This document shows, piece by piece, positions 129 to 60,216 of a stretch of DNA of 60,216 nucleotides. A program made the translations under genes and the position numbers. Position 1 is the stretch's first letter. Every line of letters begins with the position of its first letter. The notes below the pieces were generated by a model. That model worked only from the letters and a program-made list of their open reading frames with translations. It was not told the DNA's origin and did no database searches. The DNA lies in contig JAISHU010000102.1 of the NCBI GenBank assembly GCA_031262385.1, positions 1 through 60,216 on the forward strand. The letters run 5' to 3'. The stretch is from Mediterranea sp. (in: CFB group bacteria) (GTDB lineage Bacteria > Bacteroidota > Bacteroidia > Bacteroidales > Bacteroidaceae).

Positions 129-642
129 CCTATTTAAGTATCACAATGTCGTATTTTCGTGCTTTTAGCTAACTCGTACTTTGCCAAAAACGTGCCTTTA
201 AACTGCACGCTATGCATTATCTTCGGCTACTCAACGAACCAACTCCGCGAAAACAATGAATCAACTCGGCGGAAACAACGAACTAACTCCGTGAAAACAA
301 CAAACTGTCGACGCAAAAACAACGAATCAACTGCCGGCTTAAAAAATTATCCCGGCAAGTTAGTCTGTATATCCCGGCAAATTGTTGTGTTATCCCGGCA
401 AGTTATTGCGCTAACTCGGCAAGATAATTTCATAAAGTTCTTTTTGGGGCAGTTTTTTCGCGCTGAACGTGCTTTTTGTTTCTTGACATTATTTCTTCAT
501 ATCTCTCTATGAGTGTGATAATTAAGCAGCCTATTTCACATAGTTTAACGCGCTATACTCGCACGAAAGTCACCAAGCCGTACTTCAGTCCGAAATAAGC
601 CCGTTTTTCGAGGGTTCGTTTGACGTTTTGACACTTTGATAA
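129..642 (+). repeat. dispersed ~510-bp intergenic element, copy 1
   Basis: The left block (CTAACTCGTACTTTGC near 168) is followed by an array of 21-22-bp units (about 230-440) with CGGC-like cores. After that comes a right block with TTTAACGCGCTATACTCGC near 543 that ends in TTTGACGTTTTGACA near 619-634. The same order recurs in copies 2 to 6. This copy fills the gap between the terminator of the large GH31 gene and the promoter of the left-edge gene. A 117-codon frame runs through it but is not kept open in copies 2 and 5, so I do not call a gene. No terminal inverted repeats or target duplications are evident by eye. Confidence 0.9.
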
Positions 643-729
643 AGGGATGTGTCGATGCAGAAAGGGTATGATAAGGAGAAATTAGACATCATTAGACTCT
701 TGTAATATAAAGATGATCAGATAGAAATT

Positions 730-765
730 AAAAAGGCGCACCCCATTAACAGGATGCGCCTTTTT
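730..765 (-). terminator. intrinsic terminator after the large GH31 gene
   Basis: A perfect 11-bp stem (AAAAAGGCGCA at 730-740 with TGCGCCTTTTT at 755-765) encloses a 14-nt loop. It begins about 25 nt past the GH31 stop on the minus strand and is flanked by A/T runs, giving a U-tract on the minus transcript. Confidence 0.85.
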
Positions 766-790
766 AAATATAATATCGGAAGTTTCTTAC

Positions 791-3700
791 TTAGAAATGC
801 GCCGTGTTCAGTCGCTTATCTACCAACATACCGTCGGTAGTCTTCAACTCAAACTTGGCATTCTTCAGAGCTTTGAACTTCAATACAAACAGCACTTCGT
901 CGCCGCTGAGAGTTTCTTGGTTGCCAATGTTGACGAAGGTGGGATAGAGCACCTTGTCACCGTTCTTGTGCAGACGGTCGTTGGTGAGGTTCTCCATTGC
1001 CTTGGTGCCGGTAGCTTCTACGCCGGCAAACTCAAACTCGCTTTGGTTGTAGGGAAGTGCAAAACTCAAGGCATTCACAGCCTCAAGTGCTACACCCTTC
1101 ACGGTGATGCTGAGTGTTTCGCCTGCTTTCACGGTGCGTTTGTCGGCAGTGATGCTAAGCGAACCGGCTACCTTCGGATCGTTACGACGAAGTTCCACAC
1201 CGTTTTCCAGACAGATAGCAACGTTCGATATGTCGTATGCATCGATAAGTCCGTTACGGTTGAGGTCGCCATTGCTGATATAACCCTCGAAGTCCGAATC
1301 GCCTTGGCGCAAACCGGTATAGTTGATGTACGACGTCAGGTCGTTTTCATCAATCTTACCGTCGTTGTTGATGTCGCCGGGCAGATAGCTCTTCGAGCCG
1401 GGCACCTTGAATACATAGATTTCGCGTCCCGAGCCGTAGTTGCCCACGCCTTCGGTGATATGCAGTTTGATGTAGCGTGCGGTGGGGTGACCTTCGAAAG
1501 TAAATACCTTGGTGTCGCCGTCGCGCTTCCAGTCGAAGTTGCCTGCTTCCGTCCAGTGTTCCTTATCCATGCCGTAGGATACGCTGCCTTTCAGCAGAGT
1601 GCCGTTGCCAGCATCGGTGCGGGGTAGGTAGTGGAATTTATCGAGTGTGTTAACCGAAGCCAAATCCATCACAAGGTCGAACGGTATGGCATCCACACGG
1701 TATCTGGTGTGCCAGATGCCTTCGCCTGTTTCGGAGAAGTTGAACATGCGTTGTATGCCGAAACCGCCTTGGTTGGCTACACTGGTTTCGCCTTTAATGC
1801 CGGCAATGGCAAACTCCAACGGATTCACTTTGGTAGATGCGCCGAAGGTAGTCCAGTCGGAATGTCCGTCCTTGTTAACCGCGCGCAACTTGAAGTCGTA
1901 TTTGGTGAGCGGTGTGAGGTCTTGGAACAACAACTGCGTATCGGTGATGCCGGTGTACAACTGTCCGTCGAACTCTATTTCGTAGCAGTCGGCACCCGTT
2001 ACCTTATCCCAACTCGGTGTCAGCGTGTAGGCTTCGGTTTGTGCGTCGGCTACTTGTGCGTGAGCCGGAGCGGTGAGTGCGCCGGTGCTTACCAAGAGAT
2101 TGCTTTCGGGAGCAAATTCATAGCCGTTCACCTTCAAAGTCAAGGTAGACGAAGTGATGTCGGTAGCCGCAACCTTTACCAAGAGTTGCGGGTTCTTGGT
2201 GATGACTTCTTTGGCGAAGTCGCTTCCGGGAGTGGCAAATTTGTTCAGATTGGGTGCGGCATCGTAGTAATATACGTTGCTTCCCTGTTCAAAGGCTTCG
2301 AGCGAGTTTACCGCTTTCAGGCTTACGTTTTTGTTGTTCAGTTTCAGCGACACGGCTTTGGGAGCGCGTGTTACGTTTACTCTGAACTCGGTAACTTTCT
2401 CTTTCACCATGCCGTCGAAAGTACCTTTGGTAGGATGTACGGTGATGACAGCCGTTTGTTTCTTGGCATCGGCAGTCTGCTCAATGAGTGTGCTTGCCGA
2501 AGCACCTTTCAGATAGAGTTGGCTTACGCCGTCGTCGTCGTAATCGGTAAACGAGCTATCTCCTGCGGGGTACACTTCGTAGATGCGCAGGTTTTTATTT
2601 ATCTCACCAACGTGGTTGTTGGGGTTTACCATGGGGATGATGGCACCCGCCTTTACAAACACGGGCAGCTTCCACAACGGTGCGGCATAGTTGTTCAGTA
2701 TGGCTTCGCCTTGGTAGGTCTGTCCGCTGAAGTAGTCTATCCACGTGCCTTGAGGCAGATAGATGCCGTTGCGCAGGTCGTTGCCCTTTTTGTCGGCTTT
2801 CGTCTCTTGATAGATAGGAGCTACGAGGAAATAAGGACCATACATATATTGGTATTGAGTGCTCTTGCCGTGCGTATAGTCGTTGGGATAATCCAAGAAC
2901 ATGGCACGTATCATCGGTTGACCGTCCACAGCTTCTTTGGCAATGCTATACGAATAGGGCAACAGTTCCGATTTCAGTTTCAGATACCAGCGGTTGATAG
3001 AGGTTGCCGGTTCGCCCAGAGCGTGGGGGTATTTTTCGTTACTGCCCCAACCGTCCATATTGAGTTGCATGGGAGTCCACGTCTTCCACTGGAAGTCGCG
3101 TGTATTTATCACCACGTTCTTTCCGCCGAAGATGCCGTCCATATCCGAAGTGATATTGGGTTGTCCCGACAGTCCCGAACCTATATAGGTAGGAATGTGG
3201 AAACGGATGTACTCCCACATACCTCCGGTTTGGTCGCCCGACCATTCGGCAGCATAGCGTTGTGTGCCTGCCCAACCGTCCAGCGAGATAATGAACGAAC
3301 GTGCATCGTTGCCGTAGTACTGCATGATGTGCGATACGTCGGCAATACCGTTGAGCCCGAACGAATAGCCGGCACCTACCCATGCCACATCGGTTTTAAG
3401 TACACGTACACCTGCATCGCGAACCTCTTTAACGATGTCGCGTTGCAGCAGAGCACTCACGCCTTCTTTGGGGTGAAGGTCCGACTGTGTCCACAATCCT
3501 ATCTCCACACCTTGTTTGTGTGCATAGTCTGCCAAGCTTTTCAGGTTGGCGATGTTGCCGTCCAGCGTCTCGGTTTGTCCGTAACCGGCTCCGTAGCCGT
3601 CGTTAGGCAGCAACCATCCCAGCGGCATGTCGTGCGCTTTGTAGCGGTCTATCACGGCACGTGCCGAGAATTGGTAGTTGTTTTTTTCACCGTTGAGCGA

Positions 3701-4588
3701 CTCTTTGGTGCCGCCGTTGTCTTTCTGGCTCTCTTTGTAGCGTTTGCCGTCTTCAAAGAGGATGCCGGTAGAGTCGGCTTTCCAGTAGTCGCGGTTATAG
3801 GCATTGAGGTGACCTTCGTAGAAGCCGAACTTAGGCAGCAGTATGGGGTTACCGGTAAGCTGGTAGTAGTCGTTGAGCAGTGGCACGGCACCGTCGTTCA
3901 CCATAACGAACATATCCAGATAGTTGGTTTCGTGGCTTAGGGTTACCACCTCTTTGGTAGTTGCGCCGAAGTCGTAGCTACCTTTTTTAAAGGTGTAGAA
4001 CATAATGCCGTAGCCGCCTGTCGACCAGTAATACGGTGTGGGCGAAGCTACGCCGCCGTCGGTCCAGCTATTTTGGTTTTCAATAGCGATGGCTTTGCCG
4101 CGGTGCGAGAAGCGTCCGTTCTGTATGCCTCCACCGTAGAAGTATTCGCCGGGTTGCTCTTTTAGCGACACCGTAACCTCTTTCTTGTCGAACACCACGG
4201 GTGCAGCTTCTTCCATAACCGTTTTGCCGGTGGCAAGGTTGATTACTTTCAGCAGGCGGGAGCTTTTGTTGATAACGAGTTTGATTTGGGCGGTAACAAT
4301 CGTAAACGAATCGCCTTCGTCGTTTACGCTCAGCACAGAGAGAGCTTTGCGCGGTTGTTCCACCAAAATAGTTGCGGGAGGTGTAGCTTCGGGAGCGCGA
4401 AGGATTCCTCCTGTGGGGTCTTGAAAACAGCGGAAGATGTTTTCTCCGTAGAAGTCGTACGTGGTACGTCCACCGTCGTCACAGACCAGTTCGACGGTTG
4501 TCGGATTAATCTTTTCGGCTTTTACAATGCGCGTGGCATGTGCCGATAAGGAAGTAACTAAAAGCAGTAAAATGACTAATTTTCTCAT
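791..4588 (-). CDS. multimodular GH31 glycosidase with FN3, CBM32-like, dockerin and cohesin-like domains
   Basis: An exported 1265-aa enzyme with a signal peptide at 1-18. The GH31 N-terminal beta domain and TIM barrel cover about 60-700. The likely nucleophile is Asp400 in VLKTDVAW, and the likely acid/base is the Asp in EWSGDQTG near 452. An FN3 domain follows (about 838-920), then a discoidin/CBM32-like domain (about 925-1063). A type I dockerin spans about 1068-1135, with two calcium loops (DINNDGKIDENDL and DLNRNGLIDAYDI), and a cohesin-like domain ends the protein (about 1142-1265). The KTDVAWVGAGYSFG barrel signature differs from the WLDSTEP type of the neighbouring GH31. From memory, it resembles the GH31 group that includes alpha-N-acetylgalactosaminidases with CBM32/dockerin tails, but an alpha-glucosidase or alpha-galactosidase activity cannot be excluded. 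It has its own -7 box and terminator, so it may be an independent unit rather than the end of the xylan operon. Confidence 0.88.
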   Translation of the reverse strand: MRKLVILLLLVTSLSAHATRIVKAEKINPTTVELVCDDGGRTTYDFYGENIFRCFQDPTGGILRAPEATPPATILVEQPRKALSVLSVNDEGDSFTIVTAQIKLVINKSSRLLKVINLATGKTVMEEAAPVVFDKKEVTVSLKEQPGEYFYGGGIQNGRFSHRGKAIAIENQNSWTDGGVASPTPYYWSTGGYGIMFYTFKKGSYDFGATTKEVVTLSHETNYLDMFVMVNDGAVPLLNDYYQLTGNPILLPKFGFYEGHLNAYNRDYWKADSTGILFEDGKRYKESQKDNGGTKESLNGEKNNYQFSARAVIDRYKAHDMPLGWLLPNDGYGAGYGQTETLDGNIANLKSLADYAHKQGVEIGLWTQSDLHPKEGVSALLQRDIVKEVRDAGVRVLKTDVAWVGAGYSFGLNGIADVSHIMQYYGNDARSFIISLDGWAGTQRYAAEWSGDQTGGMWEYIRFHIPTYIGSGLSGQPNITSDMDGIFGGKNVVINTRDFQWKTWTPMQLNMDGWGSNEKYPHALGEPATSINRWYLKLKSELLPYSYSIAKEAVDGQPMIRAMFLDYPNDYTHGKSTQYQYMYGPYFLVAPIYQETKADKKGNDLRNGIYLPQGTWIDYFSGQTYQGEAILNNYAAPLWKLPVFVKAGAIIPMVNPNNHVGEINKNLRIYEVYPAGDSSFTDYDDDGVSQLYLKGASASTLIEQTADAKKQTAVITVHPTKGTFDGMVKEKVTEFRVNVTRAPKAVSLKLNNKNVSLKAVNSLEAFEQGSNVYYYDAAPNLNKFATPGSDFAKEVITKNPQLLVKVAATDITSSTLTLKVNGYEFAPESNLLVSTGALTAPAHAQVADAQTEAYTLTPSWDKVTGADCYEIEFDGQLYTGITDTQLLFQDLTPLTKYDFKLRAVNKDGHSDWTTFGASTKVNPLEFAIAGIKGETSVANQGGFGIQRMFNFSETGEGIWHTRYRVDAIPFDLVMDLASVNTLDKFHYLPRTDAGNGTLLKGSVSYGMDKEHWTEAGNFDWKRDGDTKVFTFEGHPTARYIKLHITEGVGNYGSGREIYVFKVPGSKSYLPGDINNDGKIDENDLTSYINYTGLRQGDSDFEGYISNGDLNRNGLIDAYDISNVAICLENGVELRRNDPKVAGSLSITADKRTVKAGETLSITVKGVALEAVNALSFALPYNQSEFEFAGVEATGTKAMENLTNDRLHKNGDKVLYPTFVNIGNQETLSGDEVLFVLKFKALKNAKFELKTTDGMLVDKRLNTAHF

Positions 4589-14359: not shown

Positions 14360-14872
14360 CCTATTTGCGCATCACAATGTCTCAATATCGTGCTTTTAGC
14401 TAACTCGTACTTTGCGAAAAACGTGCCTTTAAACCGCACGCTATGCATTAACTCCCGCTACTTAACGAACCAACTCGGCGAAAACAACGAATCAACTCCG
14501 CAGAAACAACAAATCAACTCCGCGGAAACAACGAACTGTCGACGTGAAAACAACGAATTAACTGCGACCTTATGAAATTATCTCGGCACGTTAAGCTGTA
14601 TTTCTCGGCAGATTGTTGCATTATCCCGGCAAGTTATCGCGCTAACTCGGCAAGATAATTTCATAAAGTTCTTTTTGGGGCTGTTTTTTTGCGCTGAAGG
14701 CGCTTTTAGTATTTTGACATAATTTCCTCGTATCTTTCTGTAAGTATGTGTATTAAGGTGCTATTTTTACATAGTTTAACGCGCTATACTCGCGCGAAAG
14801 TCACCGAGCCGTACTTCGGTCCGAAATAAGCCCGTTTTTCGAGGGTTCGTTTGACGTTTTGACACTTTGATA
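14360..14872 (+). repeat. dispersed ~510-bp intergenic element, copy 2
   Basis: It has the same block order as copy 1. The left block lies at 14360-14460, the 21-22-bp unit array at about 14463-14660, and the conserved right block ends in TTTGACGTTTTGACA at about 14850-14864. It lies between the start of the xylan operon and the terminator of the phosphofructokinase gene. The frame seen in copy 1 is broken here by a TGA after the first array part. Confidence 0.9.
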
Positions 14873-14911
14873 ATTATAAACCGCTGCCCTTTCGCGACCG
14901 CAAAAAAAACA

Positions 14912-21726: not shown

Positions 21727-21757
21727 TTTGCATTATATAGAACCTTTGTTACCTTTG
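21727..21757 (+). promoter_or_regulatory. promoter of the cobalamin riboswitch transcript
   Basis: A -33 TTTG at 21727-21730, a 19-bp spacer and a -7 box TACCTTTG at 21750-21757 make a near-perfect Bacteroidota promoter. Transcription would begin near 21764, just ahead of the aptamer. Confidence 0.8.
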
Positions 21758-21763
21758 CCGCGA

Positions 21764-21945
21764 TTTTGGTGCTACAATTCCACAACTTCGGAAAAGTAGT
21801 GAAAAGGGAATCAGGTGCAAATCCTGAACAGACCCGCTGCTGTAAGCTCCACTAAAATCTTCGAACAATAACCCCGCTATCCACTGTTCCGCAAGGAATG
21901 GGAAGGAGGTTCGAAGACGGAGTAAGTCAGAAGACCTGCCAAATG
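21764..21945 (+). ncRNA. cobalamin (AdoCbl-type) riboswitch aptamer
   Basis: The core of the B12 aptamer is directly visible: GGGAATCAGGTGCAAATCCTG near 21806, ACAGACCCGCTGCTGTAAGC near 21828-21847, CCACT and GGGAAGG near 21899-21906, and GTCAGAAGACCTGCC near 21926-21940. The last segment can also pair with GGCAGGTC at 21988-21995, a possible switching helix. It lies between a strong promoter and the propeller lipoprotein gene, so it should shut that gene down when cobalamin is plentiful. Confidence 0.93.
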
Positions 21946-22063
21946 AAATAGTTACAAGGCTTTCGTGGAATAGAGCCAAGGACAATCGGCAGGTCGGTAG
22001 CACGTCACACAGACGGCATAAGCATTACAACATCATAATCATACACCGTAACCCGTATCCGTA

Positions 22064-22109
22064 TCGTCTCACGAAAGCTTACAGCGTAGCTTTGTTGGGA
22101 CGATTTTTT
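22064..22109 (+). terminator. attenuator terminator of the cobalamin riboswitch
   Basis: TCGTCTCACGAAAGCT (22064-22079) pairs with AGCTTTGTTGGGACGA (22088-22103) with two internal mismatches and is followed by six T (22104-22109). It ends 21 nt before the ATG of the lipoprotein gene. This position suggests transcriptional attenuation by the riboswitch upstream. Confidence 0.7.
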
Positions 22110-22130
22110 AATTTAAATAGGTTTCAAAGT

Positions 22131-23453
22131 ATGAAAAGAAAGTTTATTCTGTTTGCTGTCATCGGAATGATGTTCAGCGCGTGTGCCGACTATCAAGACG
22201 ATATCGACGGCCTTAACAAAAAGTACGACGAGCTTCAGAAGGAGCAAGAACGACAAGCCGAACTGCTTGCCACGTACCAGCTGTTGTTACAAGCCATGGA
22301 AAGCCGCCTCACCGTCAGCGACATTGTAACCACCGACGAGGGATATAAAATTGTCTTCTCCGACGGCACCGAGTTGGTGGTGAAAAACGGTAGTTCCGTG
22401 GTACGCATCGTCGATACCGGCGACTCCATTCTCTTTTATATGAGCGACGGAAGCGTCATCACCATGGGCAAGACAGTCACCTTGGGATTGTTTGCTCTTT
22501 CCGAAGGAGGCTTTGGCGCGGGTAACGGCGAACTGGTCTATTTTGACTACAACCAAACCACCGGCAGCTTTGTGCGCAACGACAACAAGCGTTTCAAGAA
22601 CATTGGCGAAACCCCCAACGACCTGCTGCTCTACGGCTCTAAAATGTATTGCACCATTACAGGTACGTCGACCGACGGCGGTGTGTTGCGGGTGATTAAT
22701 CCTACTACCGGCGAAACCATCGGCGATGTGACAGTGATGCGCGATGAAGTCAAACAGCAACCCCGCCGACTTGCCGCCGCCGACGGCTATGTTTATGTCA
22801 GCCTTTACGGTGGAGGTGTGGCACGGGTGGATACGTTGTCTTTCGATTACAAAGCTATTGCGCTTGGCGGTACCTTCTCCGAAGGAATGTGTGTGTACGG
22901 TTCGTCGCTCTATGTGTGCAACTCGGGACAGGGCACCGGTAACACTGTGTCGGTGGTAGACAAAGCTACCTTTACCGAAATCAAAACCATCGAAGTGCCC
23001 TACAATCCCACTAATATTATTAATGTAGGCACCGACGAACTGTTCCTCAACACTGCTTCGGTGTGGAGCGGACCTTCGGCAGGCGCTTTGCCCAACATCC
23101 ACCTGCTGAACGCGAAGAGCGAAAAGATTACCAAGACCTTTGATATCGCTGCCGAAAACATGGTGGCAGGCAAACACTATGTGTACGGTACGGCAACCGA
23201 CTGGAATACTTTCGGCGGCATGCTGAAAAAGATTTCCATTGCCGACAACACGGTAACCGATTTCACCGACGACGAAGACGAGTTGATGCTTGCCTACAAA
23301 CTGTCGGTCAACCCCTTGAACGGCGAAGTGTTCCTCACCCAGCAGATGGGACAAGACATTCGTCGCTTTAAAGAAGACGGTACCTACATCGAAACCCTGA
23401 AAGCCGGACAACAAAACGGCGCCGCCATAGCATTTGTCAACGGCGTAAGATAA
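22131..23453 (+). CDS. BtuG-like cobalamin-binding beta-propeller lipoprotein with coiled-coil stalk
   Basis: A 440-aa protein from the ATG at 22131. The open frame begins at 22092, but that start would lie inside the attenuator. The lipobox MMFSAC gives Cys18. A short coiled coil (about 23-62) and a small segment rich in YKIVFSDGTEL (about 65-110) resemble the DUF4988 stalk of other Bacteroides surface proteins. The rest (about 115-440) is a YncE/DUF5074-like beta-propeller with repeats such as VRVIDTGDS and GGVLRVINPTTGE. The riboswitch upstream ties it to corrinoids, and BtuG is a propeller lipoprotein that captures B12 at the surface for BtuB. No btuB lies nearby. The BtuG assignment is inferred from fold and regulation. 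Confidence 0.75.
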   Translation: MKRKFILFAVIGMMFSACADYQDDIDGLNKKYDELQKEQERQAELLATYQLLLQAMESRLTVSDIVTTDEGYKIVFSDGTELVVKNGSSVVRIVDTGDSILFYMSDGSVITMGKTVTLGLFALSEGGFGAGNGELVYFDYNQTTGSFVRNDNKRFKNIGETPNDLLLYGSKMYCTITGTSTDGGVLRVINPTTGETIGDVTVMRDEVKQQPRRLAAADGYVYVSLYGGGVARVDTLSFDYKAIALGGTFSEGMCVYGSSLYVCNSGQGTGNTVSVVDKATFTEIKTIEVPYNPTNIINVGTDELFLNTASVWSGPSAGALPNIHLLNAKSEKITKTFDIAAENMVAGKHYVYGTATDWNTFGGMLKKISIADNTVTDFTDDEDELMLAYKLSVNPLNGEVFLTQQMGQDIRRFKEDGTYIETLKAGQQNGAAIAFVNGVR

Positions 23454-23641: not shown

Positions 23642-24143
23642 TTTTAGTAGCATAATGTCGTGTTTTTGCGGTTTCGGCTAACTCGTACTTTGCGGAAAAC
23701 GTGCCTTTAAACCGCATGTTATGCATGATCTTCCGCTACTTAACGAACCAACTCGGCGAAAACAACGAATCAACTCGGCGGAAACAACAAACTAACTCTG
23801 AGAAAACAACGAACTGTCCGCGCGAAAACAACGAATCAACTGCCCGCCGAATAAATTATCTCGGCACGTTAAGCTGTATTTCCCAGCAGATTATTGTGTT
23901 ATCTCGGCAAGTTATCGTGATAACTCGGCAAGATATTCTCAGAAAACTCCTTTTAAGAACGTTTTTTCGCGCTGAACATGCTTTTAGTATTTTGACACAG
24001 TGTGCTTATACGTAGCTGTGCAAGTGTTAGTTATGCTATTTTTTCACATCGTTTAACGCGCTACACTGCCAACGAAAGTCACGAGCCGCATCTTAGTCCG
24101 AAATAAGGGCGTTTTTTGAGGGGTTCGTTTGACGTTTTGACAG
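23642..24143 (+). repeat. dispersed ~510-bp intergenic element, copy 3
   Basis: It has the same blocks as copies 1 and 2, with the array at about 23742-23935. The right block is the most diverged of the five complete copies (for example CACTGCCAACGAAAG and AGGGCGTTTTTTGAGGGG) but still ends in TTTGACGTTTTGACA. It lies between the BtuG-like gene terminator and the SusC promoter. Confidence 0.9.
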
Positions 24144-24273
24144 AATGACAAAAACCCGATGGGCATGCGGTAGTATCAATCACAGTATAGTTATTTTCGG
24201 CTCGCTGTAGCTTTAGCGTGGGTTGACGTATATTTGACGTAGTAAATTGTATGGTTACTCTATGAACGCTGTT

Positions 24274-37978: not shown

Positions 37979-38485
37979 TCCGATTTACGTGTCATAATGT
38001 CGTGTTTTTGCGTTTTCGGCTAACTCGTACTTTGCGAAAAACGTGCCTTTAAACCGGACGTTACGCATTATTCCCCGCTACTTAACGAATCAACTCGGCG
38101 AAAACAACGAATCAACTCGGCGGAAACAACGAACTGTCAACGCGAAAACAACAAACTGTCGACGAGAAAACAACGAATCAACTGCCCGCCGAATAAATTA
38201 TCTCGGCAAGTTAAGCTGTATATCCCGGCAAATTATTGTGTTATCCCGGCAAGTTATCGCGATAACTCGGCAAGATAATTTCATAAAGCTCTTTTTGGGG
38301 TTGTTTTTCCGCGCTGAACGTGCTTTTAGTATTTTGACATAAATTCTTCATATCTTTCTGTGAATGTGCGCATTGAGTAGCTTATTTTACATAGTTTAAC
38401 GCGCTACACTCGCACGAAAGTCACCGAGCCGTACTTTAGTCCGAAATAAGCCCGTTTTTCGAGGGTTCGTTTGACGTTTTGACAG
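37979..38485 (+). repeat. dispersed ~510-bp intergenic element, copy 4
   Basis: This is the clearest copy for the array. CGGC-type cores fall at 38096, 38118, 38140, 38162, 38184, 38204, 38226, 38247 and 38268, that is every 20-22 bp. The left block is at 37979-38085 and the right block at 38290-38485. It lies between the regulator gene and the GT2 gene. A 99-codon frame passes through but is not kept in all copies. Confidence 0.92.
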
Positions 38486-38570
38486 AATGACACATTATTA
38501 ATTAGCACATTATCAAACCCACCCAATAGTTAAAACAGCATACAAACAAATATCTTGCAAAAAAAATAGA

Positions 38571-46443: not shown

Positions 46444-46476
46444 TTTGGTGGATGTATCTGCTACGTACTACTTTTG
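46444..46476 (+). promoter_or_regulatory. promoter of metY
   Basis: A -33 TTTG at 46444-46447, a 21-bp spacer and a -7 box TACTTTTG at 46469-46476 fit the Bacteroidota consensus. The start site would be near 46483, which argues for the ATG at 46510 over the upstream in-frame alternative at 46474. Confidence 0.7.
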
Positions 46477-46509
46477 TCAACAGAACAAAAAACATTAAAA
46501 CTTATAGAG

Positions 46510-47793
46510 ATGGAAAAGAAACTTCACTTTGAGACGCTCCAGCTTCATGTAGGTCAAGAGCAACCCGACTCTGCCACCGATGCGCGTGCAGTACCTATTT
46601 ATCAGACTACGTCGTATGTGTTCCGCAACTCGGCACATGCTGCCGCCCGTTTCGGTTTGCAAGATGCGGGTAACATCTACGGTCGCCTCACCAATTCTAC
46701 GCAAGGGGTATTCGAAGCCCGCGTAGCCGCACTCGAAGGCGGTGTTGCCGGACTGGCGGTGGCGTCGGGAGCAGCCGCGCTGACCTATGCATTTCAAAAC
46801 ATCACCCGTGCGGGCGACCACATTGTATCGGCACAAACTATTTACGGCGGCACTTACAACCTGTTGGAACACACGCTGCCTGCCTACGGAGTGACTGCTA
46901 CGTTTGTCGATCCGTCGGATTTGTCGAATTTCGAGCGTGCCATTCGCCCCAATACCAAAGCACTCTTCTTTGAAACACTGGGCAATCCTCATTCCAATAT
47001 CATCGACATCGAAGCGGTGGCTGCCATTGCGCACCGTCATCATATTCCGCTGATTGTCGACAATACATTCGGTACACCTTACCTTATTCGCCCCATTGAG
47101 CACGGAGCCGACATCGTGGTGCACTCGGCGACTAAGTTTATCGGTGGACACGGTACCTCGCTGGGAGGTGTGATTGTTGACGGAGGCAAATTCGACTGGG
47201 TAGCTTCGGGTAAGTTTCCGCAACTGACCGAACCCGAACCTTGCTATCATGGTGTGCGTTTTACCGATGCAGCCGGAGAGGCAGCCTACATCACCCGCAT
47301 TCGTGCCGTTTTGCTACGCGATACCGGTGCAGCTATCAGTCCGTTTAATGCCTTTATCTTGTTGCAGGGCTTGGAGACGCTTTCGCTGCGTGTGGAACGT
47401 CACGTGGAAAATGCCCTGAAAGTGGTCGATTACCTTGTGCGTCATCCTAAAGTAGCCGTTGTTCACCACCCCGCGCTGCCCGAACATCCCGACCACGCGC
47501 TCTACACACGCTACTTTCCGCATGGTGCCGGTTCCATATTTACCTTCGAGATAAAGGGCGGACAAGCCGAAGCACACCGTTTTATCGACAGTTTGCAAAT
47601 CTTTTCGCTGCTGGCAAATGTGGCGGACGTAAAATCGTTGGTGATTCACCCCGCCACCACCACTCACTCGCAACTCAACGAGCAGGAACTTATCGAGCAA
47701 GGCATCACACAAGGCACCGTCCGTCTGTCGGTAGGTACCGAGCACATAGACGATTTGCTGGCAGATTTGGAGCAGGCGTTTGCGAAGGTGTGA
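46510..47793 (+). CDS. metY: O-acetylhomoserine sulfhydrylase (PLP-dependent Cys/Met metabolism)
   Basis: A 427-aa protein from the ATG at 46510; the open frame begins at 46474 but that codon lies inside the promoter. The gamma-family PLP fold has Lys209 in [12 protein letters not shown], and the early block [20 protein letters not shown] plus PEPCYHG are characteristic of O-acetylhomoserine aminocarboxypropyltransferase. It makes homocysteine (and possibly cysteine) from O-acetylhomoserine and sulfide. It is divergent from an Lrp-family regulator. Repeat copy 5 starts only 4 nt after its stop codon. Confidence 0.95.
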
Positions 47794-47797
47794 GAAG

Positions 47798-48305
47798 TGT
47801 CAAAACGTCAAACGAACCCTCGAAAAACGGGCTTATTTCGGACTGAAGTACGGCTTGGTGACTTTCGTGCGAGTATAGCGCGTTAAACTATGTAAAAATA
47901 GCACCTTAATGCGCATGCTTACAGAAAGATATGACGAAATTATGTCAAAAAACAAAAAGCGTGTTCAGCGCGAAAAAACAGCCCAAAAAGGAGCTTTATG
48001 AAATTATCCCGGCAAGTTAGCGCGATAACTTGCCGGGATAACACAATAATTTGCCGGGATATACAGCTTAACGTGCCGAGATAATTTCTTTAGCCGGCAG
48101 TTGATTCGTTGTTTTCGCGTCGACAGTTTGTTGTTTCCGCGGAGTTAGTTCGTTGTTTCCGCGGAGTTGATTCGTTGTTTTCGCCGAGTTGGTTCGTTAA
48201 GTAGCGGGAGATAATGCATAACGTGCGGTTTAAAGGCACGTTTTTGGCAAAGTGTGAGTTAGCTAAAAGCGAGGGATTGTGACATTATGATGCGAAAATA
48301 GGTAA
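47798..48305 (-). repeat. dispersed ~510-bp intergenic element, copy 5 (inverted)
   Basis: This is the reverse complement of copies 1-4, with the TGTCAAAACGTCAAACGAACC end at 47798 and the left block near 48190-48305. The array spans about 48000-48190. The last unit has its core reversed relative to the other copies, which creates a perfect 16-bp inverted repeat (48004-48019 with 48026-48041). It lies between the convergent metY and porin genes and may act as their terminator. Confidence 0.92.
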
Positions 48306-51181: not shown

Positions 51182-53341
51182 ATGAAACGTAAAAACTTCT
51201 TGGTAGCATTACTCGCATTCGTTTGCGCCGGTGTGCTGCGTGCCGACGAAGGAATGTGGCTGTTGCAACTCATTAAGCAGCAAAATTCCATCGAATTAAT
51301 GAAAAAACAAGGACTGAAGCTCGAAGCCGATGACCTTTACAATCCGGGTGGCGTATCCTTGAAAGATGCCGTAGGTATCTTTGGCGGAGGTTGCACCGGC
51401 GAAATTATCTCGCCCGAAGGACTTATCCTTACCAATCACCACTGCGGTTATGGTGCTATCCAGCAACACAGTAGCGTAGAACACGACTATCTCACCGATG
51501 GTTTTTGGGCTATGAACCGCTCGCAGGAACTCCCTACACCGGGACTGCGCTTCACCTTTATTACACGCATCGAAGAGATTACCGACTTGGTGAATCTTAA
51601 GATTAAAAACGGTGAAGTGGACGAATATACCGCACAAACGCGCCCCTTCTTGGCTAAACTGGCTCAGGAACTCTTTGCCAAGAGCGACCTCTACGGCAAG
51701 AAAGGCATCGATGTGCAAGCATTGCCGTTCTATGCAGGCAACCGTTATTACCTGTTCTATCGCAAGGTCTATTCGGATGTACGCATGGTAGCCGCGCCTC
51801 CCTCGTCGGTAGGTAAGTTTGGCGGCGAAACAGACAACTGGATGTGGCCTCGTCACACCGGCGACTTCTCAATGTTTCGCATTTATGCCGATGCCAACGG
51901 CGAACCGGCAGACTACGCGGCAAACAATGTCCCGCTGAAGACTCCCAAATACCTCACTATCTCTATCAAAGGATTGGAAGAAGGCGACTACGCCATGATA
52001 ATGGGCTTCCCCGGAAGTACTTATCGCTACCTCACCACTGCCGAAGTGCAGTCGCGCATGGATGCACAAAACGAACCGCGTATCACCATCCGCACCGTAG
52101 CACTCGACGTGCTTCGCGAAGCCATGGCGGCAAGCGACCAAACACGCATCCAGTACGCCAGCAAGTATGCCGGCATCAGCAACTACTGGAAGAACTCTAT
52201 CGGCATGAACAAAGCCATTGTAGATAACGATGTGCTGGGTGTAAAGGCTGCACAAGAGAAAAACTTCGAAGCCTTTGCCAAAGGAAAACCCGAATACGAA
52301 GGAGTGGTGGACAAGATTAACGCCCTCGTTAACGAACAGATGAGTGTGAACCGTCAGGGTTACTACCTCTCCGAAGCCTTTAGCAACGTCATCGAGTTTA
52401 TCCGTCGCAACGTGCTGATTGATGACTTCCGCAAAGCCATCGAAGCAAAAGACGAAGCCGGCATCAAAAAAGGTACGGAACTGCTGCAAAGTCTCTTTAC
52501 TGCGATTCACAACAAAGACTACGATCACGAAGTAGACCGCCGCGTAGCCAAAGCTATTTTGCCGGTATATGCCGCCAACATCAGCCCCGACCAACGTCCC
52601 GCCTTCTACCAAACCATCGACAAAGAGTTTAAAGGCAACACCGATGCTTATGTGGATGCTATGTACGACAAGTCTATCCTTGCCAATAAAGCCAACCTCG
52701 ACAAGTTCTTGAAGAAACCCACGGTGAAAGCACTCGACAAAGACCTGATGCTCTCATTCATTGGTGCCAAAATAGAGAAACTGCAAGAACTGTCGACACA
52801 GATTGCCGCTCCCGAAAAAGAGTTGACCCTGCTGCACAAAGCCTACATCCGCGGATTGGGCGAGATGAAGCTGCCCACTCCGTCGTATCCCGATGCCAAC
52901 TTCACTATTCGCCTTACCTACGGCAACGTGAAAGAGTATCAACCCCGCGACGGCGTCACCTATAAATATTACACCACTACCGACGGCATACTGGAGAAAG
53001 AAGATCCCACGAACCGCGAGTTTAACGTGCCCGCCAAGTTGAAACAACTGATTCTTAGCAAAGACTTCGGACGCTACGCCATGAAGAACGGTGAGATGCC
53101 TGTCTGCTTCCTTAGCACCAACGATATTACCGGCGGTAACAGCGGAAGCCCCGTACTGAATGCCAACGGCGAACTGATAGGTGCCGCATTCGACGGCAAC
53201 TGGGAGTCGCTGAGCGGTGACATCAGTTTCAACAGCGAATTGCAACGTTGCATCAATGTGGATATCCGCTACATTCTTTTCATCCTTGAAAAGTTGGGCA
53301 ATTGCAGCCACCTTATTAACGAAATGACCATCGTTGAGTAA
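51182..53341 (+). CDS. S46 dipeptidyl-peptidase, DPP7-like (hydrophobic/broad P1)
   Basis: A 719-aa periplasmic serine exopeptidase with signal peptide 1-21. The chymotrypsin-type triad is His86 in LTNHHCGY, Asp228 in PRHTGDFS and Ser654 in GGNSGSPV. Residue 672, eighteen positions after the Ser, is Gly in AAFDGNWE. In S46 peptidases this position is Gly in DPP7 (hydrophobic P1) and Arg in DPP11 (acidic P1), so this one should be DPP7-like. It releases dipeptides from the N terminus of peptides. Its stop overlaps the start of the second S46 gene by 1 nt. Confidence 0.93.
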
Positions 53342-55506
53342 TGAAAAAGATACTTATAACAACCATTCTTACCGCAATCACCACGTTCCCCGTCCTTGCC
53401 GACGAGGGAATGTGGATGCTTACCGACCTGAAGAAACAGAATGAAGTAGCCATGACGGAACTGGGATTGCTCATTCCCGTTGACCAGATATATAGTCCCG
53501 ACGGAATTGCCATCAAAGATGCCGTGGTGCACTTTGGCGGCGGCTGCACGGGCGAAGTTATCTCGGCAGAAGGGTTGGTGCTCACCAACCACCATTGCGG
53601 TTATAGCTACATAGCCAAGCACAGCAGTGTGCAACACGATTACCTCACCGACGGATTTTGGGCGATGAACCGCTCTGAAGAGCTTCCTTGCCAAGGACTG
53701 AAGGTGACCTTTATCGACCGCATTCTGGATGTTACCGACTATGTGGAGCAACAACTCCAAAAGGACGATGACCCCACCGGCGTAAATTATCTTTCGCCCA
53801 AGTATCTGGCAACCGTTGCCAAACGCTTTGCCGAACAAGAGAACATCGCTCTTACACCCGGACGTTCGCTGGAACTGAAAGCCTTTTACGGCGGCAACCG
53901 CTATTACCTGTTCGTTAAGAATACCTACAGCGACATCCGCATGGTGGGTGCACCGCCATCGTCAATCGGAAAATTCGGTGCCGATACCGACAACTGGATG
54001 TGGCCTCGTCACACCGGCGACTTCTCTATCTTCCGCATCTATGCCGACAAAGAGGGACAGCCGGCGGAATACTCGCCCGAAAACAGACCTCTGCACGTTA
54101 AGAAGCATCTGACGCTCAACTTGAGCGGCTACCGCGAAGGTGACTTTGCCTTTGTAATGGGCTTCCCCGGTCGTAACTGGCGCTATATGATTTCCGACGA
54201 AGTGGAAGAGCGTATGCAAACCACCAACTTCATGCGTCAACATGTACGCGGAGCACGTCAGGAGGTGTTGATGCACGAGATGCAACGCGACCCCGCCGTA
54301 CGTATTCACTATGCCAGCATCTATGCTTCGTCGGCTAACTACTGGAAGAATGCCATTGGCATGAATGAAGGACTGGTGCGTCTGAAAGTGCTCGACACCA
54401 AACGTGCCCAGCAGGAGCAACTCTTGACGCGCGGTCGCGAACTGGGCGACAATAGCTACCAAGAAGCGTTCGACCGCATCCGCGACATCGTGGCTCACCG
54501 CCGCGCACCGCTCTATCATCAACAGGCAATCCAAGAGGCATTGGTGACGGGCATGAGCTTTATGAACATCCCCAACACAACTCCTCTGATTGTTGCCCTG
54601 AAGAGCAAAGACAAAGCTGCCATACAAGCTGCCGCCGATACATTGCGTGTCCGCGCGGAGGCTTATTTCGCATCGGTGCCTTTCCCCGACGTGGAGCGTC
54701 TGGTGGCTAAGCGCATGCTGAAGAGCTACATGGAGTATATCCCGCAAGAAGAACGCATCGGCATCTTCAATCTGATAGACAAACGCTTCAAAGGCGACAG
54801 CGATGCGTTTATTGATGCCTGCTTCGACTACTCGCTCTTTGGCAGCAAAGCCAACTTCGAGAAGTTTATGCGCAAACCCCAACTCAAGCGATTGGCTTCG
54901 GACTGGATTGTGCTCTTCAAGAGTGCTATCAGAGAAGGTCAGTTGCAAACGGCACTTGCCATGGCAGATGCCAACAAGGACTACGATGCCGCACACAAGG
55001 TGTGGGTAAAGGGAATGATGCAAATGAAACAGGCAAATGGTCAGCCCATCTATCCCGATGCCAACAGCACACTTCGTCTGACATACGGACGCATCTTGCC
55101 TTACGCTCCTTCGGATGGCGTAGAGTATCACTACTACACTACGATGAAGGGTGTTATGGAGAAAGAAGACCCCGATAACTTTGAGTTTGTGGTTCCCGAG
55201 AAGCTGAAACAACTCTACCGGAAGAAAGAGTTCGGTGGCTATGCTATGCCCGACGGCGAAATGGCTACCTGCTTCATTATTGATACCGACCAAACCGGAG
55301 GTAACAGCGGTAGTCCCGTGTTCAATGCCAAAGGCGAACTGATTGGTACCGGATTCGACCGCAACTTCGAAGGACTGACGGGCGACATTGCTTTCCGTCC
55401 CTCGTCGCAGCGTGCCATTGCCGTGGACATTCGCTACACCTTATTTATTATAGAGAAGTACGCAGGTGCCTCGCACCTCATAAAAGAAATGACGATAGTA
55501 GAATAG
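53341..55506 (+). CDS. S46 dipeptidyl-peptidase, DPP11-like (Asp/Glu at P1)
   Basis: A 721-aa paralogue of the preceding protein with signal peptide 1-20, the block [15 protein letters not shown] and catalytic Ser656 in GGNSGSPV. The specificity position (Ser plus 18, residue 674) is Arg in GFDRNFEG, as in DPP11, which prefers Asp or Glu at P1. The two genes overlap at TAATG, so they are made together and cover complementary peptide sets. The bio genes follow 43 nt downstream. Confidence 0.93.
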   Translation: MKKILITTILTAITTFPVLADEGMWMLTDLKKQNEVAMTELGLLIPVDQIYSPDGIAIKDAVVHFGGGCTGEVISAEGLVLTNHHCGYSYIAKHSSVQHDYLTDGFWAMNRSEELPCQGLKVTFIDRILDVTDYVEQQLQKDDDPTGVNYLSPKYLATVAKRFAEQENIALTPGRSLELKAFYGGNRYYLFVKNTYSDIRMVGAPPSSIGKFGADTDNWMWPRHTGDFSIFRIYADKEGQPAEYSPENRPLHVKKHLTLNLSGYREGDFAFVMGFPGRNWRYMISDEVEERMQTTNFMRQHVRGARQEVLMHEMQRDPAVRIHYASIYASSANYWKNAIGMNEGLVRLKVLDTKRAQQEQLLTRGRELGDNSYQEAFDRIRDIVAHRRAPLYHQQAIQEALVTGMSFMNIPNTTPLIVALKSKDKAAIQAAADTLRVRAEAYFASVPFPDVERLVAKRMLKSYMEYIPQEERIGIFNLIDKRFKGDSDAFIDACFDYSLFGSKANFEKFMRKPQLKRLASDWIVLFKSAIREGQLQTALAMADANKDYDAAHKVWVKGMMQMKQANGQPIYPDANSTLRLTYGRILPYAPSDGVEYHYYTTMKGVMEKEDPDNFEFVVPEKLKQLYRKKEFGGYAMPDGEMATCFIIDTDQTGGNSGSPVFNAKGELIGTGFDRNFEGLTGDIAFRPSSQRAIAVDIRYTLFIIEKYAGASHLIKEMTIVE

Positions 55507-56997: not shown

Positions 56998-57004
56998 CTC
57001 CGCA

Positions 57005-57646
57005 ATGAACAATATCTATTTCGTCAGCGGCATTGATACGGATGCCGGCAAATCGTACTGCACGGCGTGGTATGCCCGCCAACTTATGCAGAGCGGCAAA
57101 CGTGTCATCACCCAGAAGTTTATACAAACCGGCAACATCGACCGCAGCGAAGACATCGAATTGCATCGCCGCATCATGAATATCGACATGACCCCTGAAG
57201 ACCGCGAGATGCTTACCATGCCTCAGATATTCAGCTATCCCGCTTCGCCGCATCTTGCAGCGCAAATAGACCGCCGTGATATTGACTTCGCCCGGATTGA
57301 ACGTGCCACCATAGAGCTTTCGCACCGCTACGATACGGTGCTCGTCGAAGGTGCCGGCGGACTGATGGTACCGCTTACCGAGACATACCTCACCATTGAT
57401 TACATTGCCGAAAAGAATTATCCCCTAATCTTTGTAACTTCGGGCAAACTGGGTAGCATCAACCACACCCTGCTGAGCTTGGAAGCCATTCGTTCCCGCA
57501 ATCTCACGCTCGACGCCGTGCTGTACAATCTCTATCCTCCGGTTGAAGATAAAACCATACAGGATGATACGTACCGCTACATCCGCAACTATTTACATCG
57601 ACACTTTCCGGAGGCGAAGTTTGTGACGGTGCCGGTGATAGGGTGA
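57005..57646 (+). CDS. bioD: dethiobiotin synthetase BioD
   Basis: A 213-aa ATP-dependent carboxylase-type enzyme that closes the ureido ring of dethiobiotin. The P-loop is GIDTDAGKSYCTAW (about 9-22, with Ser in place of the usual Thr), followed by QKFIQTG and VEGAGGLMVPL. Length is slightly short but standard. It ends the bioG-bioC-bioD run; bioA, bioB and bioF are not in this window. Confidence 0.95.
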   Translation: MNNIYFVSGIDTDAGKSYCTAWYARQLMQSGKRVITQKFIQTGNIDRSEDIELHRRIMNIDMTPEDREMLTMPQIFSYPASPHLAAQIDRRDIDFARIERATIELSHRYDTVLVEGAGGLMVPLTETYLTIDYIAEKNYPLIFVTSGKLGSINHTLLSLEAIRSRNLTLDAVLYNLYPPVEDKTIQDDTYRYIRNYLHRHFPEAKFVTVPVIG

Positions 57647-57682
57647 TATATAAGGAAGGTTTTTACAGGTTTCGCATACAGT

Positions 57683-59032: not shown

Positions 59033-59050
59033 AATTGTGATTTTGATATA

Positions 59051-59058
59051 CAAAAGTA
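59051..59058 (-). promoter_or_regulatory. candidate -7 box of the AAA ATPase gene
   Basis: The minus strand reads TACTTTTG, 19 nt upstream of the ATG at 59032, implying a short leader and favouring this ATG over one at 59053 that overlaps the box. Confidence 0.45.
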
Positions 59059-59075
59059 ACTACATTCCCCCATCC

Positions 59076-59151
59076 CTCAAAATCTTTTTCTCCTAAATAC
59101 CCGAAAATCTCAAAATCTTTTTGCTTAAAATACCCGAAAATCTCAAAATCT
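59076..59151. repeat. 33-bp tandem repeat between two minus-strand genes
   Basis: Two units (59076-59108 and 59109-59141) of CTCAAAATCTTTTT...TACCCGAAAAT differ at a few central positions, and a third partial unit runs into the stop codon of the transporter gene. On the minus strand this is the 3' end of the transporter gene and the upstream region of the ATPase gene. It is unrelated in sequence to the dispersed element. Confidence 0.85.
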
Positions 59152-60111
59152 TCACCGATTTCCCTCGTTTTTCTCTTTTCGGTAGAGTTGCCACGCATTA
59201 AATATATTTTGCCACAGCACATACGAGCCGGGTCCGATAGCTGCCAATGGATTGAGGTAGGCGAACGACATCCAAATGGCAAGAATGGTGTTCTTTTGTC
59301 CCAATGCCTGTCCGCCGCTGATGCGGTCGCCATAGTGTCCGCCCACACGCTTGCCGACAAAGAATTGCAGAGCGCACATCGCCAATCCGACAAGTGCAAT
59401 GCTCCACTCCACACCGGCGGTAGTGTGGCTGGTCAGTAGCAGTTGCACCGTTTGCCCCGACACGATAGTCAGCGCTAATGCCCACATATAGAAGGCGATG
59501 CCGCTATAACGTCTCAGCCATGCATGGACGGGTTTCAACCATAGTTTGAGTGTCCAAGCCAGCAAGAAGGGAAGTATCAATAGGGGGAAGACTTTGCTCA
59601 ATATCTTTAAGAAAGCCGCTCCGAACGTGATGCCTTGATGTACTTCGACCATAGGAAACAGCAACGGTACGGCAACGGCAGCCAGCAGATTGGAGAGTAG
59701 GGTATAAGTGGTAAGTGTGGCGGCATTGCCTCCGAGCTTGCCGGTAATTACTGCGGCAGCCGTGGCGGTAGGACACACAAGGCAGACCATGGCAGCTTCG
59801 AGCAGCACCCGCCATGTGTCCGAAAGCGGTAGCCACAGCAACAACGCCACCGTTGCGAGGCACGACAACAGTTGAAACAGTAACAGGCGTCCGTGCCACC
59901 CGCAAGGTTTCAGTTCGCCGAGACGTTCTACTTTGCAGAAGGTCAGCAACAACTGCCCGAATATCAATATCGGAATAAAGTAACCGATGCCGGTAGAGAT
60001 ACCCGCTTTTACCGATGTCGGTAGCGAGACATTTGTCAGCACAAAATAGCTCAAGACGCCTGTCAGCATAGCCAGCGGCAGCGTCCACTTCTTTATAAAA
60101 CCTGTTAGCAT
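59152..60111 (-). CDS. bile acid:sodium symporter (BASS)-like transporter
   Basis: A 319-aa integral membrane protein with about nine to ten helices. It has the block CLVCPTATAAAVITGKLGGNAA near 113-134 and GQKNTILAIWMSFAYLNP near 270-287, which are features of BASS-family transporters. The substrate is unknown; members carry bile acids, pantoate or other organic anions with Na+. A -7 box sits only 4 nt upstream of the ATG at 60111, so the transcript may be leaderless or use the next ATG at residue 15. Confidence 0.88.
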   Translation of the reverse strand: MLTGFIKKWTLPLAMLTGVLSYFVLTNVSLPTSVKAGISTGIGYFIPILIFGQLLLTFCKVERLGELKPCGWHGRLLLFQLLSCLATVALLLWLPLSDTWRVLLEAAMVCLVCPTATAAAVITGKLGGNAATLTTYTLLSNLLAAVAVPLLFPMVEVHQGITFGAAFLKILSKVFPLLILPFLLAWTLKLWLKPVHAWLRRYSGIAFYMWALALTIVSGQTVQLLLTSHTTAGVEWSIALVGLAMCALQFFVGKRVGGHYGDRISGGQALGQKNTILAIWMSFAYLNPLAAIGPGSYVLWQNIFNAWQLYRKEKNEGNR

Positions 60112-60115
60112 GCCG

Positions 60116-60123
60116 CAAAGGTA
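60116..60123 (-). promoter_or_regulatory. -7 box very close to the transporter ATG
   Basis: The minus strand reads TACCTTTG, matching TAnnTTTG. Transcription about 7 nt downstream would start at or inside the ATG (60109-60111). Confidence 0.5.
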
Positions 60124-60167
60124 GTGCTTCTTTCTTAATACACCTCTGCTGCGACGTATCTATTATC

Positions 60168-60216
60168 AAAGTGTCAAAACGTCAAACGAACCCTCGAAAA
60201 ACGGGCTTATTTCGGG
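60168..60216 (-). repeat. dispersed ~510-bp intergenic element, copy 6 (cut by the window edge)
   Basis: CAAAGTGTCAAAACGTCAAACGAACCCTCGAAAAACGGGCTTATTTCGG is the reverse complement of the right end of copies 1 and 2, base for base over the visible part. The orientation matches copy 5. The rest of the copy lies outside the window. Confidence 0.92.

Follow-up and report, generated by a model that had tools for sequence, protein, structure and literature searches.

A dispersed intergenic element with a 22-bp internal array, possibly of MITE-like origin, in Bacteroides genomes

REP, BIME and ERIC-type repeats are short palindromes found in many dispersed, intergenic and non-coding copies, plasmid iterons are direct repeats of ~17–22 bp set in helical phase, and Tn7-type transposons make a 5-bp target duplication. 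According to the available text of PMC8649781, the ends of Tn7-type transposons carry ~22-bp TnsB sites in both orientations that are bound by the transposase. In Porphyromonas gingivalis, BrickBuilt was described as a MITE with a minisatellite, and the accessible parts of that report (PMC4596501) give 19 copies from P. gingivalis and P. gulae, with short, unequal flanking duplications in three of the four copies having both ends.

As far as these partly available sources go, BrickBuilt is the nearest described system in build to the element analyzed here, although its unit and ends differ. Both have a leader, a tandem array whose unit spans roughly two helical turns and a tail, are strictly intergenic, lack a transposase, occur in tens of copies at sites mostly common to strains, and break assemblies (PMC4596501). 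In contrast, the BrickBuilt unit is 23 bp long with one consensus, AGAYCATARTATCCTCTCRTRTG, for which the stretch studied here has 0 matches at up to three mismatches; its copies hold 1 to 22.8 units, whereas the number is near-constant in the element; and its ends are of the IS5-type GAGACC form, found in 2 of 68 copies of the element at up to two mismatches (PMC4596501, accessible parts). PgRS/MITE464 of P. gingivalis is likewise MITE-like with internal tandem repeats, and is set apart by its description, with a 41-bp unit and IS5-type ends (same source, PMC4596501). The resemblance to Tn7-type ends in having arrays of ~22-bp sites is an analogy only; the Tn7 sites lie at two ends flanking cargo genes, as described in the available text of PMC8649781, whereas the array of the element is central. 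Terminal arrays, a tnsB-like gene (or room for any tns gene) and a target duplication are all absent from the element. Helical phasing is shared with plasmid iterons and dispersal with REP, BIME and ERIC-type repeats, but the element is present in tens of chromosomal copies and is a 500-bp modular structure containing an array.

No published account of this family was found in the literature covered, in which subscription journals were thinly represented (including PMC4596501, PMC5771137 and PMC8649781, each available in part). The family had also not been recognized in a sequence-only reading. In searches using copy 1 as the query, no match was obtained in Rfam, even at an E-value of 1, or in phage or plasmid databases. 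One pattern match to a viral contig was judged by reading to be stray, without the element.

Layout and distribution of the element

The window, meaning the whole 60,216-nt stretch analyzed, is positions 1–60216 of contig C11 in the home genome, G000. All six ~510-bp copies proposed in the sequence-only reading are present (Table 1), the sixth being truncated by the contig end. The right-end 24-mer occurs at six sites in the window at up to three mismatches, compared with an average of 0 in 100 dinucleotide shuffles, and the five full copies could be aligned in a common layout across ~510 bp (pairwise repeats of 82–89%). The shared sequence of copy 5 starts 2 bp past the end of a gene at 46474–47793.

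Table 1 Copies of the element in the window and components of copy 1
Feature	Position	Strand	Right-end 24-mer	Basis
Copy 1, full	129..642	+	610–633	five-copy alignment; left block from 168
Copy 2, full	14360..14873	+	14841–14864	repeat alignment, right-end 24-mer
Copy 3, full, more diverged	23642..24150	+	24119–24142	repeat alignment, right-end 24-mer
Copy 4, full	37979..38492	+	38461–38484	repeat alignment, right-end 24-mer
Copy 5, full, inverted, flanking genes convergent	47795..48305	-	47798–47821	repeat alignment, right-end 24-mer
Copy 6, inverted, right end only, truncated by contig end	60163..60216	-	60172–60195	right-end 24-mer
Copy 1 leader (left) block, starts GCTAACTCGTAC	168..232	+		limits from consensus columns
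Copy 1 array A, 22-bp units, type AACTCGGCGAAAACAACGAATC	233..338	+		lag-22 period; limits approximate
Copy 1 array B, 21–22-bp units, type TTATCCCGGCAAGTTA	347..429	+		limits approximate
Copy 1 tail, terminating in right block TCCGAAATAAGC...GACGTTTTGACACTTTGATAA	430..642	+		limits approximate

In each copy, a leader block and a tail block enclose an array of 22-bp units. The home leader is akin to the leaders of the G025 and G168 families, and the right block of the tail is the best-conserved part between species. Leader start and right end are exactly 466 bp apart in 55 of the 68 full home copies, the top period is 22 bp in 67 of these copies and 44 bp in one, and the last unit of array B is inverted in ~28. 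The right ends also bear TGTCA/TGACA boxes.

The element extends well beyond the 60 kb, so that neither outcome named beforehand as refuting the sequence-only reading, a match to a described family or confinement to this stretch, was obtained. In the draft of the home genome (2.595 Mb, 84% complete), 84 right ends were located, 42 per strand, with 0 in a reversed-pattern control; both end blocks are present in 68 of the 84 copies. Repeats of ~500 bp break draft assemblies, and 10 of the 84 right ends lie close enough to a contig end to leave their copy truncated. By extrapolation from 84% completeness, the complete genome would hold near 100 copies, not the hundreds that had been considered possible from the window. 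Similarly, the proposed spacing of one copy every 9–14 kb describes the locally rich window but not the genome, where the density is ~1 right end per 31 kb. The proposals that copies lie only between genes and are oriented independently of them were both borne out, as 0 of 68 full copies fell within an ORF (using a crude ORF caller), and the 44 copies with both neighbors called were flanked by divergent (15), tandem (20; 11 + 9) or convergent (9) genes.

Among relatives, the tail block recurs within the genus Bacteroides (GTDB sense), where the tail-block model R1 matched 58 of 158 genomes, the remaining 100 yielding none at the chosen threshold. Outside the genus, R1 matched 2 of 392 other genomes drawn from the order, with 21/42- or 22/44-bp periods beside the tail at six of the seven loci. 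Copy number ranges from none detected to 84 places per genome, and one genome that is 99% complete (G024) gives 0 matches even under laxer filters. Ten of the 11 matches in G085 have at least one flank in common with a match in G007, and an inversion-like flank swap was seen in these draft assemblies between G085 L281/L282 and G007 L260/L274 and G094 L278. One clean empty site was found (479 bp in G007 versus 18 bp in G085), which could instead have arisen by loss between short direct repeats at both ends. At the site of L267, the array in G094 is an unrelated one of 42 bp with no tail block. A neighbor gene is shared with home-genome loci at 1 of 20 loci in G025 and 3 of 30 in G168 (right block read in 23 of the 30); conservation of position between distant species was rejected, the sharing being close to chance expectation given an estimated ~1,700 gene gaps.

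Variation and spacing among copies

Core divergence among home copies averages 13.8%, and nearest neighbors are at least 5.5% apart, indicating that there are no recent duplicates. Across the 68 copies, 2,916 substitutions from consensus were counted versus 13 gap events, four of which are 22 bp long, and 175 of 470 columns are invariant. Mean linkage (r2) between sites was.21 at 1–5 bp,.053 at 6–15 bp and ~.02 farther apart, and all four gametes were present in 1011 of 1011 site pairs separated by more than 100 bp. Simulations covered a tree without recombination, independent decay and tract exchange. The tree gave far r2 values of.57–.84 and independent decay gave 0% two-allele columns, whereas exchange with tracts averaging 40 or 120 bp gave r2 of.13–.25,.045–.103 and.017–.022 in the same distance classes, with 52–69% two-allele columns compared to 74% observed. 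Exchange of 40–120-bp tracts reproduces the pattern of the home copies, while a tree or independent decay fails to do so, although the lack of linkage could in part be mimicked by selection that tolerates two bases in each column. In G007, G085 and G094, orthologous copies are more alike than non-orthologous copies (array,.73 versus.50), so exchange there is incomplete.

The top period of the internal array is 22, 43 or 44 bp in 24 of 27 other genomes, and yet in 334 of 351 genome pairs the likeness of array units does not exceed that of shuffled sequence (units are shared in the other 17). That the central repeats mostly change sequence while holding their spacing, between ends that can still be recognized, is suggestive of a protein-binding DNA scaffold. 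When units were tested for palindromy, 11 of 27 arrays reached p<.05 (Stouffer z 9.5), with no significant dyad signal in 16 of the 27 and none in the two arrays of the home genome itself (p.42 and.87); six of the 27 were hand-picked, and six of 33 candidate loci were under the cut-off. The best period of leader-tail distances is 10.6–11.0 bp in three of four sets (p.0005 for 89 pooled distances; best period 11.8 in G025), although the 11-bp steps are weak in the one-locus-per-genome set (p.023, or.062 using distinct values only). Leader-to-tail distances are shown to be quantized at about 11 bp, or one helical turn. Overall, the most telling features are the period conserved across species and the missing linkage between copies, neither of which was visible to the sequence-only reading.

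Origin and candidate function

Protein coding was rejected on the basis of the variability by codon position (.355/.370/.317) and of the most open frame, whose open runs have a median of 82 codons (46–117) out of ~156. Target duplications are absent from the 68 home copies and from four sets of copies in relatives (31 + 24 + 17 + 27, with three copies belonging to two sets); in all of these, flank matches within the same copy equal cross-copy matches. The 9-bp box CTTTGATAA adjoining the right end was dismissed as a target duplication because it is nearly constant among home copies. No transposase was seen in the copies read, and the element is too short to fit one. Earlier claims that both features are lacking hold. 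Inverted similarity between the two ends is weak: inverted ends (at least 9 of 10 matches) occur in 14 of 68 copies versus 5 of 68 shuffled, a weak excess. The element resembles a MITE in being short, non-coding and dispersed with discrete ends, but not in target site duplication.

We interpret the family, with moderate confidence, as an old, non-autonomous, MITE-like DNA element of Bacteroides (GTDB sense) with a phased array of putative protein sites and copies homogenized by recombination. Of the three readings offered earlier (a chromosome-organization site, a structured RNA or a mobilized non-coding element), the last is best supported, given the dispersal, the discrete ends, the variable number of places per genome and the empty site. 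Some recombinase would have carried the copies along as passengers, for the most part in the distant past, and they would now be inherited in place, with short tracts exchanged by ectopic homologous recombination that homogenizes the set of each genome. The 22-bp units, two helical turns in length, are candidate sites for a DNA-binding protein, which may often be a dimer since many units are palindromic. Bound to one face of the helix, it could assemble a nucleoprotein complex that bridges leader and tail. By analogy with the 22-bp transposase sites of Tn7-type ends, this protein may be, or have been, the mobilizing transposase. More tentatively, the family might represent a new class of DNA element similar to satellite DNA, i.e., dispersed nucleoprotein scaffolds selected for period and phase, in which sequence turns over with a species-specific binding protein and the tens of copies form one freely recombining population within a chromosome.

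Mobility could also be long past, with a nucleoid-associated or segregation protein on the phased arrays now organizing the chromosome from domesticated sites. Near-constant length, helical phasing, the invariant columns and the sites common to close relatives all fit this explanation, which seems rather doubtful: most genomes of the genus lack a tail match, G024 gives none even under laxer filters and copy number varies widely. Polar chromosome sites such as KOPS and Chi are oriented according to replication direction, unlike the 84 home copies, which show no polarity relative to GC skew (mean.0009 along element orientation, 47 of 84 positive), and neighboring copies have the same orientation in 8 cases and the opposite in 10. 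It is unlikely that the array is a passive minisatellite with no bound protein, its period inherited from one ancestral 22-bp array and whole units copied by recombination. The largely free unit sequence, the 22-bp deletions and the unrelated array at L267 in G094 would follow, but the 11-bp (half-unit) leader-tail steps, the palindromic tendency and the conserved leader and tail would be left unexplained.

Old, independent copies at drift equilibrium, with columns tolerating two bases under selection, would yield an absence of linkage and strong differences between columns without any exchange. This is distinctly improbable, as neither the linkage found at 1–15 bp nor transversions in 24 of 58 two-base columns would be expected, the inverted last unit is common to its ~28 copies without its surroundings, and simulated exchange reproduces the data. 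A structured RNA, or a small regulatory RNA gene in many copies, is very improbable. Some folding excess is present, as the 68-copy alignment folds at -30 and -39 kcal/mol on its two strands, whereas five shuffles of the columns, made for one strand, gave -10 to -20 kcal/mol, and copy 1 has z -2.29 on the reverse strand. Against this, the forward strand has z -0.88, inverted array B units suffice for hairpins, copies have no orientation relative to genes and Rfam gave no match to copy 1. Furthermore, 80 tail sequences yielded no consensus base pair, and 32 longer tails from the G007 group yielded just three, contributing -0.01 kcal/mol; covariation noted by eye in tails (short hairpins in single copies) was lost in the consensus test.

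If the recombination reading is true, these MITE-like copies would constitute a natural archive of ectopic gene conversion within a gut genus, marked at 84 places in one genome, and sequence data alone would suffice to measure the rate and tract length of exchange; the simulations point to tracts between some tens and about a hundred bases long. A changing array under a fixed 22-bp period sharply predicts a phased DNA-binding protein whose preference is specific to each species. The family would also extend the BrickBuilt kind of architecture, which the available text of PMC4596501 reports from two Porphyromonas species, to elements spread across Bacteroides.

Copies and anatomy of the element in G000

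All six copies of the intergenic element that the sequence-only reading had placed in the window were recovered in those places by repeat comparison, five-copy alignment and a right-end search. The window is contig C11 of the draft genome G000 (171 contigs, 2,595,335 bases, 83.94% complete), in which a right-end 24-mer with up to three mismatches matched 84 places (42 per strand, 65 exact), while the reversed 24-mer used as a control matched none. The 78 places outside the window were all retrieved for comparison. Sixty-eight right ends had a recognized leader block and constitute the full copies in all G000 counts; ten were cut by a contig end and six lacked a leader match. Locus L065 aligned nearly full-length, its leader having been missed by the search pattern, the left part of L107 and L115 differed from other copies, and L084, L098 and L100 were truncated. 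Outside and adjoining the right end, several of loci L039-L116 share short modules (GAATGCGTCGCCGCAGTTGAGGAG..., GGATGCGTCTCCCAACTTC..., AATGTGCTAATGAGGCGGTGC...), which are apparently other intergenic repeats of G000.

Parts of the element in the G000 consensus
Part	Sequence or unit	Position
Leader	GCTAACTCGTACTTTGC.AAAAACG	
Array A	22-bp units	between leader and array B
Array B	21-22-bp units	3' of array A
Tail	unrepeated	between array B and right block
Right block	ends GACGTTTTGACACTTTGATAA	

The element consensus starts with an outer left part that varies among copies and comes in two visible types. From leader start to right end, the distance was exactly 466 bp in 55 of the 68 copies (range 444-468). 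Across these copies the 470-bp core carried 2,916 substitutions relative to the consensus and just 13 gap events, 4 of them 22 bp long, and 175 of the 470 columns were invariant despite a mean of 6.2 changes per column. Variability by codon position was flat across the element, and none of the 68 copies lay inside an ORF called by a crude caller. With this caller, median distances to neighboring genes were approximately 158 and 130 bp, and the 44 copies with both neighbors called were flanked by divergent (15), tandem (20) or convergent (9) genes. Element orientation showed no correspondence with GC skew in G000.

Copy 5 adjoins a coding end, as its shared sequence starts 2 bp past ORF 46474-47793 (homocysteine synthase family; window 47793-47798). 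Elsewhere in the window, a cobalamin riboswitch (RF00174, 101 bits, 21750-21957, plus strand) lies upstream of ORF 22092-23453, and a 1265-aa GH31 protein (791-4588, minus strand) has a dockerin type I and a cohesin domain, both above Pfam cut-offs, suggesting cellulosome-like parts combined in one Bacteroides protein. The adjacent plus-strand ORFs 51182-53341 and 53341-55506 (719 and 721 aa) have repeated DNA stretches in common (D4, D6, D8) and are probably a tandem duplication.

Linkage and probable exchange among copies

Core divergence between pairs of the 68 copies averaged 13.8% (range 5.5-29.2%), the nearest relative of every copy was at least 5.5% diverged, and a four-cluster cut left 61 copies in one cluster; the copies form no tree. 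Mean r2 across 119 common variable sites was.21 at 1-5 bp,.053 at 6-15 bp and ~.02 farther apart (chance.015). At 58 sites a second base occurred in at least 15 copies; 43 of these were essentially two-allele (share.74), and 24 were transversions. Four-gamete combinations were present in all 1011 pairs of these 58 sites more than 100 bp apart.

Far r2 was.57-.84 in trees simulated without recombination (4 runs); when decay was simulated as independent, using column-specific rates, r2 was low at every distance and no two-allele columns arose (3 runs). Exchange among 68 copies with 30% of columns fixed was simulated once at each mean tract length (15, 40 and 120 bp), yielding r2 values of.075,.131 and.247 at 1-5 bp,.028,.045 and.103 at 6-15 bp, and.016,.017 and.022 beyond 15 bp, with two-allele shares of.67,.69 and.52 and 61-72 common columns. 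The G000 data (.21,.053 and.018; two-allele share.74; 58 columns) were close to the 40-120-bp tract runs, with the two-allele share somewhat above every exchange run.

The exchange simulation thus supports tract exchange among copies, and it lowered the weight of the alternative that copies do not exchange and selection tolerates two bases per column, which we consider unlikely. A structured RNA gained weight from the 68-copy whole-element alignment, which folds better than five column shuffles; inverted units in array B may be the source of this excess, RNA tests of the tail found no consensus structure, and we regard this explanation as highly improbable.

The element in related genomes

Used as a DNA query, the full element matched only G025 among 60 relatives, and weakly; this locus led to diverged families in G025 (at least 20 copies) and G168 (at least 23), with leaders and tails related to those of G000 and different arrays, of which G025 alone has at least two types. 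In L130, L131, L133 and L134 of G025, a hairpin-like CCCCCGC...GGGGGTG stretch occupies a place that is array in other copies. A tail model built from 23 sequences, with no structure, matched at least 58 of the 158 Bacteroides genomes (genus in the GTDB sense) and at least 31 of 93 good ones (E 0.001), counts that are lower bounds given strict filters and up to 27 candidates scored per genome. Among 393 genomes drawn from the order, with G000 and two or more others of its genus in the draw (10 candidates scored each, E 0.0001), three were positive: G000, G413 from another genus of the same family, and G261 from another family. In six of seven loci from these positives, the strongest period on one or both sides of the tail was 21, 42 or 44 bp, marginally so in L316; L319 had no such period, and L316 and L323 also had other periods (41 and 33) on their other side.

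Among close relatives, tail matches numbered 15 in G007, 11 in G085, 6 in G094 and 0 in G024. Ten of the 11 in G085 have at least one flank in common with a G007 match, and these sites are therefore inherited. In 13 site-sharing pairs, mean array identity was.73 versus.50 for non-orthologous pairs, and outermost tail identity was.84 versus.73. At the L260/L278 site the flanks were 89-94% identical and the array unalignable (.48), and at a site common to G164 and G121 the tail was kept and the alignment ended at the array. The flanks of L260 and L274 in G007 are paired differently around L281 and L282 of G085, the outcome expected from inversion between two oppositely oriented copies; L278 of G094 is arranged as in G007. 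Locus L264 (G007) spans 479 bp, bounded at each end by ACARAATGACA-like direct repeats, versus 18 bp in G085 between flanks 87-88% identical; the latter is a clean empty site, compatible with gain or loss. The L267 site in G094 has an unrelated 42-bp array and no tail block; this intergenic array (L305, about 2951-3284, ~8 tandem units) stands where G007 and G085 have the element.

Flank 7-mers gave no indication of target duplication in the 68 G000 copies (76 same-copy matches versus 72 ± 15 cross-copy), and flank matches within and between copies were likewise equal in relatives (31, 24, 17 and 27 copies). Inverted similarity between element ends was weak, and no copy read carried a transposase; in these comparisons the element shows no sign of ordinary transposition.

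Array period, phasing and interpretation

Among loci from 27 other genomes, one from each (lags 14-45; G007, G085 and G094 mutually close), the strongest period was 22 in 19, 44 in three, 43 in two, and 23, 41 or not significant in one each; it was 22 or 44 in 17 of 21 G025, 20 of 24 G168 and all 68 G000 copies. The best 22-base match between arrays reached at least 18 in 17 of 351 pairs across the 27 genomes (shuffled maximum 17), and the other 334 fell within the shuffled range. In most genomes compared, the array period is kept while array sequence changes. Units tended to be palindromic: 11 of 27 arrays tested had p<.05, and z averaged 1.83 over all 27. The arrays tested comprised 21 of the 27 loci (six were below the cut) and six G025/G168 loci picked by us; the two arrays of G000 did not show this tendency.

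Distances from leader to tail cluster in ~11-bp steps in four sets of 28, 23, 15 and 23 copies (10 loci lacking a leader match were excluded; three loci belong to two sets), with best periods of 11.0 (G007 group), 10.6 (G168), 11.8 (G025) and 10.8 (one-per-genome). Phasing was significant when pooled (p.0005) and for distinct values per set (p.0005), although pooled values overstate the case because copies in a set have common ancestry; the one-per-genome set gave p.023, and its distinct values p.062.

The nearest described element, BrickBuilt (PMC4596501), is alike in build and layout, and differs in unit, unit number and ends. Its defining unit had no match in the window at up to three mismatches, and its defining ends matched 2 of 68 copies at up to two mismatches, so our element is not a BrickBuilt member. 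In binding, our element may resemble a Tn7-type transposase array (PMC8649781).

Dispersal, period, phasing and missing linkage have all been measured, and we infer an array-binding protein, a recombinase and any host benefit. The reading we favor, at about an even chance, is an old, MITE-like, non-autonomous DNA element that is now mostly inherited in place. Ectopic recombination between copies would homogenize the set, and the array units would serve as helically phased, putative sites for a protein.
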